Source: Thermosulfuriphilus ammonigenes
GTDB lineage: Bacteria > Desulfobacterota > Thermodesulfobacteria > Thermodesulfobacteriales > ST65
Assembly: GCF_011207455.1 (NCBI RefSeq)
Contig: NZ_CP048877.1
Location: 798,576-862,575 of the forward strand
DNA length: 64,000 nucleotides
Direction of reading: 5' to 3'
Shown here: piece by piece, positions 1 to 2,656 of the stretch
Numbering within the stretch: the first letter of the stretch is position 1
Layout of the letters: the number at the start of each line of letters is the position of its first letter
Notes under the pieces: generated by a model
Database searches by the model: none
What the model saw: only the letters and a program-made list of their open reading frames with translations
Told to the model about the DNA's origin: nothing
Position numbers and translations under genes: made by a program

Positions 1-19
1 GCTGAGTTTGAGCGTTAGG
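1..19 (+). mobile_element. attC: 3' end of an integron attC site (cut by window edge)
   Basis: The first 19 bases differ at one position from the last 19 bases (1068-1086) of the complete attC at 1028-1087, and end in the same GCGTTAGG recombination core. This shows that another cassette lies to the left and that the DUF4365 gene is flanked by attC sites on both sides. The integron integrase would be expected further left, outside the window. Confidence 0.8.
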
Positions 20-28
20 AGGAAAATT

Positions 29-973
29 GTGGGACAAATAGGATCTATTGCACATCATTTTCACCAGGGAGCAAGGTCAGAATATTTAGCTCAGTATGTG
101 TTATCTGCTTTTGGAATCGCAATTCCAGTACCAAGACCAGAAGATGCCGGAATTGACTTATATTGTGCTATTGGAGAAGAAGTTGGGAAACGATTATTGA
201 TAGAAAATTATTTTGTCGTACAAGTTAAAAGCAACAAAAATGATATAATACATGAACCAGAAGAAAGCGTAAAGTGGATTTTGTCTCAAAAATATCCCTT
301 TATCATTTGTGTAGTAAATAAATATGAAGGAATAATAGAACTTTACCAAACATTACAATTAGCAAAATTCTTTCCCGAAGAAGATATTAAAAGACTAATT
401 TTTAGTTTTTCTCCTTCAAAAGAAGGAAATTTTGTTGAACAGGAAGAAGATAAAAAGGAAGTTAAAATATTATTAGATCGCCCTATTTTGAAGATAAAGA
501 TACCAGATATTGATAAAAAGGAAATATTGTCTCAATATAAAAGAATTCTCAAATCTTGGATTGAATTGGACCAGGAAAATATTGATAGAAAAAATGCCGG
601 AATAAATGTTGTGATTTTTCCACCTAAAATTATTACAAATTCTGAGATTGTTCAAGAAAGAAAGTTGGAAGGTAACTTTTTTAAACATAAGCTTAATCAA
701 ATAATTGCAAATAAATATTATGAAAACCTGTTTTTCTTTTTAGCTCATGAAATTCATAATGCAGTTGCACAAGAAGATCAGGATCGATTTGTAGCTATTT
801 CTGATCTTTGTTGGGAACTTATTAAAGTTTTATCTTTGAAAGATAATTATGGAATTCGGATGTTGCAAGTTGCTATTAATAAAGGTTCTGAAAAATTATG
901 CTGTGATAGACATTTAAATTTATATATAAATGGTAAATTAATCCGAACTAATGGTGTCAAAATAGTCAAATAA
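29..973 (+). CDS. DUF4365 domain protein, integron cassette gene
   Basis: The protein is about 314 aa. The N-terminal half matches the DUF4365 pattern: an acidic GIDLYC segment about residue 40 followed by a YFVVQVKSN strand and a YPFIICVVN strand. This is the D...QxK arrangement of PD-(D/E)XK nuclease-like folds. The C-terminal half is not recognised. I place the start at GTG 29 because TAGGAGG (16-22) sits 6 bases upstream; an upstream TTG at 8 lies inside the attC site and is less likely. The gene is much more AT-rich than the chromosome to its right and is bracketed by attC sites, so it is a mobile cassette. DUF4365 proteins are often found in defence or other accessory islands, but the function here is unknown. 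Confidence 0.75.
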   Translation: MGQIGSIAHHFHQGARSEYLAQYVLSAFGIAIPVPRPEDAGIDLYCAIGEEVGKRLLIENYFVVQVKSNKNDIIHEPEESVKWILSQKYPFIICVVNKYEGIIELYQTLQLAKFFPEEDIKRLIFSFSPSKEGNFVEQEEDKKEVKILLDRPILKIKIPDIDKKEILSQYKRILKSWIELDQENIDRKNAGINVVIFPPKIITNSEIVQERKLEGNFFKHKLNQIIANKYYENLFFFLAHEIHNAVAQEDQDRFVAISDLCWELIKVLSLKDNYGIRMLQVAINKGSEKLCCDRHLNLYINGKLIRTNGVKIVK

Positions 974-1027
974 AAAGGGAGCTTGTTTGCAGAATTTAGA
1001 TTTTTAGGGCCAGAAAAAGTTAAAAAT

Positions 1028-1087
1028 CCTAACAATTCATTTCAACGGACGGGCTATATAGCCCGCCGCTGAGTTTAAGCGTTAGGA
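1028..1087 (+). mobile_element. attC: Complete integron attC recombination site (59-base element)
   Basis: The site starts with CCTAACAATTC, ends with AAGCGTTAGG, and has a central perfect palindromic arm GGCGGGC / GCCCGCC (with the order GACGGGC-TATATA-GCCCGCCGC). The outer arms CCTAAC and GTTAGG are complementary, as are the inner segments around TCAACGG and CCGCTGAG. This is the R''-L''-loop-L'-R' layout of classic short attC sites. The recombination point would be G/TTAGG at 1081-1082. Its orientation places cassette coding strands on the + strand, in agreement with the flanking genes. Confidence 0.9.
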
Positions 1088-1764
1088 TGAGATTTAATTT
1101 AAGAATAACGAATAAAAACGATAGTCTCATTGATATTATCCATAAGATCTGTACTGTAATTGGTGTGCTATTTGGTATTTGGTATTTGGGCATATTTTCA
1201 CACCATTCATCCTGTATTTGAGAAGGAACTAGAACTTCAAAAGTTGCGAGGCGAAAAAGAAAAATTAATTAAGTCAATAAAAGAAGTTACATATAGTTTA
1301 AATAAAGTCAAAAAGGAAAAAATATATTAGCGAAAAATATGCAGCAACTTCGGTTTGAAAAACAGCAGATCATTAATCAAATTTCCACATTGAAGGCCGA
1401 TTTAGATGCAAAAGAGAATGAATTAGGGAAATTAAATAGACAATTACAATTTGCATCTAAGGCTGCTATTTTGAATAGACTTTACTATTTTTCTGATAAA
1501 CTTATAAATGCATATTTATTACACATTACTACACATAAATCAGAAGAATTTGATGTAATTGAAGTTGCTAAGAAGATTCTTCATACTCATAAAAAGGACT
1601 CTGAAAATATTTATGAAAAACAAGCGTATGTTTTTTATTCTTATGTAAATAAACACGAAGATGAAAAATTCTTTGGAGATAAAATTATCGAGTTTGCTAT
1701 AATGTTGCCTTTTGAGTATAAATTTCAAAAAATCAAAACTTATAAAAAAAACAACAAATATTAA
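1087..1764 (+). pseudogene. Frameshifted membrane-anchored coiled-coil cassette gene
   Basis: Three reading-frame pieces read as one protein. ATG 1087 begins a short N-terminus with one membrane helix (about codons 15-32, ending FGIW). A second frame continues from about 1187 as WAYFHTIHPVF followed by a charged coiled coil, to a stop at 1328-1330. A third frame runs from about 1317 through ATG 1339 to 1764 with more coiled coil and a helical C-terminus. The first shift coincides exactly with a 7-bp tandem duplication GGTATTT at 1174-1180/1181-1187; removing one copy restores the frame. The second falls in an A-run at 1317-1322. Short membrane-plus-coiled-coil proteins of this kind are common cassette cargo. 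The piece at 1339-1764 could still be translated alone. No attC is visible after it. Confidence 0.6.
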
Positions 1765-1830
1765 ATAGGTAATTATCATGTAGATGATCTTATAGCTAGG
1801 CCTTTTGACATTAGCACTAGGGGGGCAAAA

Positions 1831-2081
1831 ATGGTAAAATTCTGGAACTACTTGGGAATTAAAGAGTTTTTTTTGAGACATATTGTAAGTTAATACAAAC
1901 TGCTAAGTCAAACGACATTATAAACTATGGAGATATTGCAAGAATTATAAATCTACGAACATCGAGTAGCCATATGGCTAGAGAAGTTGGTGAAATGTTG
2001 GGAACAATTTCTTCAATTGAGTACAGATTTAACAGACCAATGCTAAATCTTGGAAAATTTATTACTGGGGGCATCAAATAG
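1831..2081 (+). pseudogene. Frameshifted and probably truncated small gene
   Basis: ATG 1831, after a GGGGGG ribosome-binding-like stretch, reads MVKFWNYLGIKEFF and then stops. One base out of frame beyond a T8 run (1867-1874) the sequence continues for about 65 residues, including NYGDIARIINL, SSSHMAREVGEMLGTIS and RFNRPML, to TAG 2079-2081. These motifs resemble a family of small hypothetical proteins in which the RPML segment is followed by a further conserved region. Here the reading diverges after RPML, so the 3' end also seems lost. The gene is AT-rich like its left neighbours. The family function is not known to me; the assignment is by motif memory only. Confidence 0.5.
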
Positions 2082-2143
2082 ATGACACAACATTAAAATA
2101 GGCCGAACTCTATCAAAACATTGCAGAGCCTATTGTCATCTAT
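2078..2143. repeat. Imperfect long inverted repeat at the array edge
   Basis: ATAGATGACA (2078-2087) is the exact complement of TGTCATCTAT (2134-2143). Inside it, AATAGGC (2097-2103) pairs with GCCTATT (2128-2134). A 9-base insertion on the left arm makes the hairpin asymmetric. It overlaps the end of the broken gene at 1831-2081. It lacks the GTTRRRY core of an attC. It may be a decayed recombination site, an insertion-element end or a transcription terminator. Confidence 0.5.
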
Positions 2144-2204
2144 TAATGGGGTCATCAAACACTCGACATTTTAGGGGCTCAAAACCCTTGATATTCAAGG
2201 AGTT

Positions 2205-2395
2205 TCAATGTCGACTAAAAAGCGCTCCCATTAATAAGATTTCGGTTAGGGCCTGGATTTCGAGTTCTTTTTCGGCCAGGAGCCGTTTGAGGCGAGCGTT
2301 TTCGGCGAAAAACCGCTTGAGGCCTTTGGCTTCGGTTTTATTTGAGGCCAGGCTCTGATGGAATTTACACAAACGGGTAGACAGTTCCTTTATGG
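2205..2395 (-). pseudogene. IS3-family transposase OrfA remnant
   Basis: On the minus strand, an open frame ending at TGA 2205-2207 contains LKRFFAENARLKRLLAEK followed by ELEIQALTEIL. This is the leucine-zipper tail typical of IS3-family OrfA, where ENxRLKRLLAEKxLEIxxLKEIL is the familiar pattern. No helix-turn-helix N-terminus, OrfB or terminal repeats are visible, so this is a fragment of about 40-60 recognisable residues. It lies exactly at the transition from the AT-rich cassette array to the GC-richer chromosome, which suggests it took part in forming the junction or that insertion sequences accumulated there. Confidence 0.6.
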
Positions 2396-2656
2396 GGAGA
2401 AGACCTGTTTCAAAAAGGATAGATTTATATGAGGTAAATGGTTATTTAATTTGGCCAAGCCGTGTCTGACTGGAGCCCCTACTCGAGTAAAGTTTACTCC
2501 TTGTAGGTGCCTCACCCAGGAAAGACGACTGTCTGGAAAGATAGTCCCCAGGTAAACAACTATAGCGCAGGCTACCACCACGGCCTTAAGAAATCGCCTC
2601 AGCCGAGACTCATAGGGAAGGCCAAATTCGTAAAGATAAAATCGATATCGGGCCAC
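2390..2656 (-). CDS. Small single-pass membrane protein, unknown function
   Basis: The protein is 88 aa. GTG start at 2654-2656 is preceded by a strong AGGAGG six bases upstream, which is the main reason to believe the gene. Residues about 23-42 (FLKAVVVACAIVVYLGTIF) form one membrane segment after a basic N-terminus; the rest is basic and soluble. It follows the PHP gene by 27 bases on the same strand and is probably in its operon. The last codons touch the IS3 remnant, so the C-terminus may have been altered by that insertion. I do not recognise a family. Confidence 0.5.
   Translation of the reverse strand: MARYRFYLYEFGLPYESRLRRFLKAVVVACAIVVYLGTIFPDSRLSWVRHLQGVNFTRVGAPVRHGLAKLNNHLPHINLSFLKQVFSP

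Follow-up and report, generated by a model that had tools for sequence, protein, structure and literature searches.

A small chromosomal integron array and its intact-looking partner in a thermophilic member of the Thermodesulfobacteriales

The window locus and array A

The window, i.e., the whole stretch of 64,000 nucleotides that was analysed, covers C1:798576-862575 of a one-contig genome of 2,287,345 bp from Thermosulfuriphilus ammonigenes. The sequence and a covariance search place its left edge within an integron array, here called array A, which is thereby cut and which holds four cassettes and three attCs in total. Its features are listed below in genome (C1) or window coordinates.

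C1:796000-796416, minus strand: open fragment of a decayed intI, truncated and frameshifted, about 2 kb left of the window
C1:796935-796968: candidate attI before cassette 1, a 35-bp element common to arrays A and B
Between the candidate attI and the attC at 797717-797786: cassette 1 (241 aa)
C1:797717-797786: first attC, after cassette 1 (covariance model)
Between the first and second attC: cassette 2, a 277-aa frame whose stop codon lies inside the following attC (798536-798594)
C1:798536-798594, plus strand: attC A2, cut by the window start; window 1-19 is its 3' end (L' and R' arms, GTTAGG core)
Window 17-22, plus strand: AGGAGG, a ribosome-binding-like sequence that, as read from the letters, would arise at the attC/cassette junction
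Window 29-973, plus strand: DUF4365-like gene of cassette 3, with a likely GTG start at 29 (the ORF program starts at 8)
Window 1028-1086 (C1:799603-799661), plus strand: attC A3, 59 bp, with R'' CCTAAC at 1028-1033 and R' GTTAGG at 1081-1086
Window 1087-1764, plus strand: gene of cassette 4, the last of array A, apparently disrupted (translations and ORF list)
Window 2140-2400: insertion-sequence-like remnant at the right edge of array A

In attC A3, the outer boxes enclose paired L arms, an L-stem hairpin, and an extrahelical base, in line with the arms, loop, and GTTAGG core that the initial annotation of this DNA had described. The 59-bp element, placed there at 1028-1087, is real and ends one base earlier, at 1086, and the assignment of positions 1-19 to the 3' end of another attC is borne out by the complete site upstream. 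The gene between the two sites had been called a DUF4365 gene; its protein is DUF4365-like, scoring just under the Pfam cut-off for PF14280 (21.5 bits, E 2.7e-4; cut-off 24.3), and also matches PADLOC PDC-M02A (5.9e-4). The cassette 4 gene opens with an ATG at 1087, meets a stop near 1219, and reopens in frame at 1339 (141 aa), after which come degenerate DNA and the insertion-sequence-like remnant (within 1087-2150 and beyond). No attC was found 3' of cassette 4 or further along the window with the covariance model R1 (see below). The proposed contrast between AT-rich DNA and a GC-richer chromosome likewise holds, with a G+C content of 32% in array A and 53% in the adjoining chromosome. No tRNA lies near array A or array B.

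Insertion-sequence-like pieces occur at four places (window 2140-2400 and genome positions 927705-927766, 1194875-1194934, and 2062391-2062484). Two of these are the far ends of arrays A and B, the piece at 927705-927766 adjoining the truncated attC with which array B ends.

Array B, the intact-looking integron

A leftward extension of the locus, which had been proposed as a way of finding intI and attI, does yield an intI copy and a candidate attI, but the intI is truncated and frameshifted, and the intact-looking platform lies about 127 kb away. In blastn comparisons, the copy of array A is 84% identical over 662 bp, with indels, to the intact intI of array B, and the alignment stops about half-way through the gene. 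Array A has no intact intI in cis; it is a decayed side platform and not the genome's intact integron. The latter comprises the following features.

C1:927.8-940.3 kb: array B, about 127 kb from array A, with intI, candidate attI, and about 10 attCs
C1:939096-940340, plus strand: intI, 414 aa, intact frame
C1:938144, 936500, 935138, 931389, 930889, 930265, 929819, 928797, 928269, and 927759, minus strand: attCs (covariance search)
C1:931459-935138: long Lamassu-type cassette (~3.7 kb; LmuA, LmuC, LmuB)

With 27 bits, the attC at 930265 is weak. The one at 927759, which closes the array, is truncated and lies beside an insertion-sequence-like remnant. In each array, cassette 1 is preceded by a 35-bp element that has a GTTAGA core; the two copies are 88.6% identical and constitute the candidate attIs. 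The LmuA/B/C genes can also be described as ABC-three-component genes (CTD7, MC3, DUF3732), and further cassettes carry two HicAB pairs, SIR2-like fragments, and a GmrSD_N/HNH protein. The SIR2-like protein is spread over three frames (C1:935209-936492; L024:7209-8492) and is probably a broken defence gene. A search for the Pc promoter of array B gave 3 promoter-like matches where 2.3 were expected, which is no more than chance.

Identification of the attC sites

Two covariance models were used: R1, built from nine sites of the genome itself including attC A3, and R2, built from eight array B sites only and therefore an independent test for array A. Under R1, attC A3 scored 76.6 bits, a value to be read with its presence in the training set, and the cut site at 1-19 scored 19.5 bits. 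Under R2, attC A3 reached 67 bits (E 2.5e-16) and the other two attCs of array A 70.8 bits (798536-798594, the complete form of the cut site) and 62.7 bits. R2 also matches two attCs of an Escherichia coli class 1 integron (46 and 36.7 bits). In the alignment of the nine sites, 93.8% of the cells are paired, as opposed to 26-44% in slid controls, and compensatory changes are seen at 8 of 20 pairs; the observed values were reached by 0-3 of 500 shuffles. The bases G21 and A22 are unchanged in all nine training sites. The attCs of the genome's integron thus show the conserved R boxes, paired L arms, and extrahelical base by which such sites are recognized. Across the 2.29-Mb genome, every strong match falls in array A or B, including the matches at 931389, 936500, and 927759, none of which was in the training set. 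A search of the window's first 4 kb against Rfam returned no attC, and a sub-threshold snoRNA match there was dismissed as chance.

The integrase and its N-terminal extension

The IntI of array B clearly exceeds the TIGR02249 cut-off of 265 bits, with 411 bits in the genome search and 414 bits for the protein. The existence of this integrase and of many more attCs confirms that the window holds part of an integron cassette array, as had been claimed, and the two checks named for that claim, an integrase profile search and an attC covariance search, both returned matches, the 59-bp site included. The alignment to the IntI4 structure 2a3v (E 3e-80) spans residues 103-414 and takes in both the catalytic motifs (R, K, H, R, H, Y) and the integron-specific region; the IntI core is 48% identical to that of IntI1.

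Residues ~1-100 (C1:939096-939398; L024:11096-11398) are not in IntI1. This extension is common to the IntIs of Nitrospirota, Planctomycetota, and Deltaproteobacteria and, being found in mesophiles too, is not specific to thermophiles. It is named neither by TIGR02249 nor, for this IntI, by Pfam. A structure predicted from 14 sequences (mean pLDDT 86.5) consists of four helices, and its best fold matches are XerA and the core-binding domain of IntI4 (probability 1.00, TM 0.56-0.63, E 0.08-0.14). Phage_int_SAM_4 matches 8 of the 14 members (best 7.3e-9), with no match at E 1 for the genome's own member, and a profile of the extension matches IntI4 (E 0.001). Profile and model similarity together suggest that the extension resembles a second core-binding (SAM-like) domain, arranged in tandem with the first. 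Such a tandem architecture would offer another starting point for studying how IntI holds on to DNA. No description of the domain was found in the literature searched, which omitted most subscription papers.

Host and spread of integrons

A reverse gyrase (TIGR01054, 1184 bits, C1:93175-96579) and a 16S G+C content of 60.5% mark the host as a thermophile, as the initial annotation had supposed; it belongs to the Thermodesulfobacteriales. Of the 41 genomes of the class, 39 have a reverse gyrase above the cut-off. An IntI above its cut-off is present in seven, with a fragment in one more, and is intact in several. In the phylum, an IntI match at E 1e-70 was found in 117 of 296 sampled genomes; integrons are thus nothing special at the phylum level, and rarer in the thermophilic class. 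The suggestion that a Desulfobacterota host would broaden the known range does not hold at the phylum level, since integrons are this common and a review already counts Desulfobacterota among the integron phyla (PMC8618304). An IntI has also been mentioned in a hot-spring spirochaete (PMC9668308); no paper combining Thermosulfurimonas and integrons was found in the literature searched. What appears to be new are the integrons of the thermophilic class and the signs of cassette exchange within it, a class undescribed in this respect in the literature searched.

Two other genomes deserve a side remark. One complete genome of the class (G006) has two intact intI genes (C1:1332888-1333811 and 1433003-1433926), each with its own array, and its cassettes include a HEC-05 defence protein. 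The thermophile Desulfothermus okinawensis (L071) has an intI of the extended type with an apparently broken frame and an 80-bp attC.

Movement of cassettes and, probably, of integrases among thermophiles

A tree of 55 rows groups the IntIs of the thermophilic class in a single clade (8 rows, SH-aLRT 96) that is not ordered by host family, and the closest relative of the IntI described here, 94% identical, comes from another family (G008). The intI gene or its platform has therefore probably moved within the class, judging from these sequence relationships.

A HicAB cassette of array B (C1:930879-931422; counterpart L116:10292-10841) was found in two families of thermophiles. It is 91% identical to the copy in G033 and 82% to that in G038, these two being 93% identical to each other (both relatives are multi-contig assemblies), and the HicA proteins are identical between the two families. 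The baseline between these genomes is much lower for reverse gyrase DNA, at 68-69% over the alignable part (68.6% against G033); 16S identity is 89.5-89.9% (89.9% against G033). Because the cassette is 91% identical where reverse gyrase is at about 68%, cassettes have moved between thermophiles. The attC hairpins of the shared cassette differ in sequence and, by eye, keep their pairing. Exchange of cassettes, as this case shows, extends to hot, anaerobic communities.

Folding of attC at high temperature

An attC functions only as a folded single strand, and how this works at high temperature is a natural question. A nearest-neighbour estimate predicts that the L stem of the window attC is folded at 65 °C (Tm ~76 °C, dG65 ~ -2.8). 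R-arm pairing falls with heat, from a median of 0.70 at 37 °C to 0.26 at 65 °C for the genome's own sites (extrapolated energies), and the attCs of mesophiles mostly remain folded in the L-stem model. Taken together, folding would present no obvious barrier at 65 °C. ViennaRNA DNA energies at 65-70 °C were non-monotonic with temperature for some sites and were not relied on.

Whether attCs of thermophiles are more stable depends on the measure. A central-hairpin measure, which chose trivial hairpins in long sites, gave median Tm values of 77 °C for the genome's own sites and 87 °C for relatives versus 73 °C for mesophiles (p 4e-5). An L-stem measure, whose scan counts most sites once per strand, gave a helix dG37 of -14.3 for thermophiles versus -10.4 for mesophiles at equal GC (0.70 vs 0.69), with only -9.0 for G006. 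Thermal adaptation of attC is not claimed here because the two measures disagree, sites of the same class are non-independent, and the mesophile sites were chosen with R1 and are thus biased towards it.

Interpretation

The system is a real, canonical integron of a known kind in a thermophilic host. We put at about 95% the reading in which the window locus forms the distal portion of a small integron array on the chromosome of a thermophilic member of the Thermodesulfobacteriales, with the following proposed mechanism. IntI, if expressed and active, would bind the folded bottom strand of an attC and recombine it with the candidate attI or another attC, whereby promoterless cassettes, mostly toxin-antitoxin and defence-like, would be inserted, excised, and shuffled; array A would now be workable only in trans, by the array B IntI. 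The computed support consists of the attC sites and their covariation, the family and architecture of IntI, the thermophily marker, and the sharing of a cassette across families. Most likely, integron gene capture thus works in thermophiles too.

That the whole system is instead an inactive relic, unused by its thermophilic host, is unlikely. It would account for the broken intI and disrupted last cassette of array A, the truncated terminal attC and insertion-sequence-like remnant of array B, and the AT-rich, foreign-looking cassettes, but the array B intI is intact, the IntIs of the class form one well-supported clade in 7-8 of 41 genomes, intact in several and present twice in G006, and one cassette is 91-93% identical across genera and families, far above the gene baseline. 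Even less credible is a spread of the shared HicAB region by ordinary homologous recombination or another mobile element: although both arrays are flanked by insertion-sequence-like remnants, the similarity to G033 opens at the GTTAGA core and closes in the cassette's own attC, i.e., at the cassette borders, and the neighbouring genes differ between the genomes. A chance palindrome or unrelated REP/MITE-like repeat mimicking attC, to which the imperfect 59-bp palindrome by itself (a weak signal) and the 23.6 bits reached under R1 by the reverse strand of the window attC region might point, is ruled out by the distribution of sites, one after most cassettes in a single orientation the rest of the genome being free of strong sites, by the intI and candidate attI in cis, and by a covariance model that was built independently and picks up class 1 attCs as well.

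Within the integron reading, it is conceivable, though doubtful, that a heat-adapted integron lineage has long resided in the Thermodesulfobacteriales and exchanges cassettes within hot communities by means of an IntI whose core-binding domains number two, the additional one helping to hold attC or attI DNA. If so, this domain might act at AT-rich R arms that come apart at the temperature of growth, or where cruciform extrusion is disfavoured by reverse gyrase. In thermophiles that carry reverse gyrase, integrons open the temperature limits of attC recombination to testing, and they would be a source of heat-stable IntI for structural studies.

Comparison with known integrons

Integron genes have been reported from vent settings before, in the deep sea by Elsaied et al. 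in 2007 (as cited in PMC8618304) and in PMC10295459. The table in the latter lists complete integrons for Hydrogenovibrio species alone, marks the others as CALIN or In0, and has no Thermodesulfobacteriales among its entries. Mobile class 1 integrons share the IntI core (48% identity to IntI1) and attCs that are matched by the covariance models described here; they differ in that IntI1 lacks the N-terminal extension, while in the present genome no plasmid or transposon context was seen and no resistance cassettes were found. The chromosomal integrons of the TIGR02249 type (Vibrio, IntI4, PDB 2a3v) are alike in the IntI core, which includes the integron-specific region, in a divergent intI, in attC hairpins that show compensatory changes, in the uniform orientation of the cassettes, and in toxin-antitoxin and defence-like cassette contents. 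In contrast to these, the integron described here resides in a thermophilic host with reverse gyrase, has short arrays on two platforms, one of them decayed, and encodes an IntI with about 100 extra N-terminal residues. The same IntI architecture is found in the extended-IntI integrons of Desulfobacterota, Nitrospirota, and Planctomycetota, which are the nearest non-thermophile relatives found and from which the IntIs of the thermophilic class stand apart as a separate clade.
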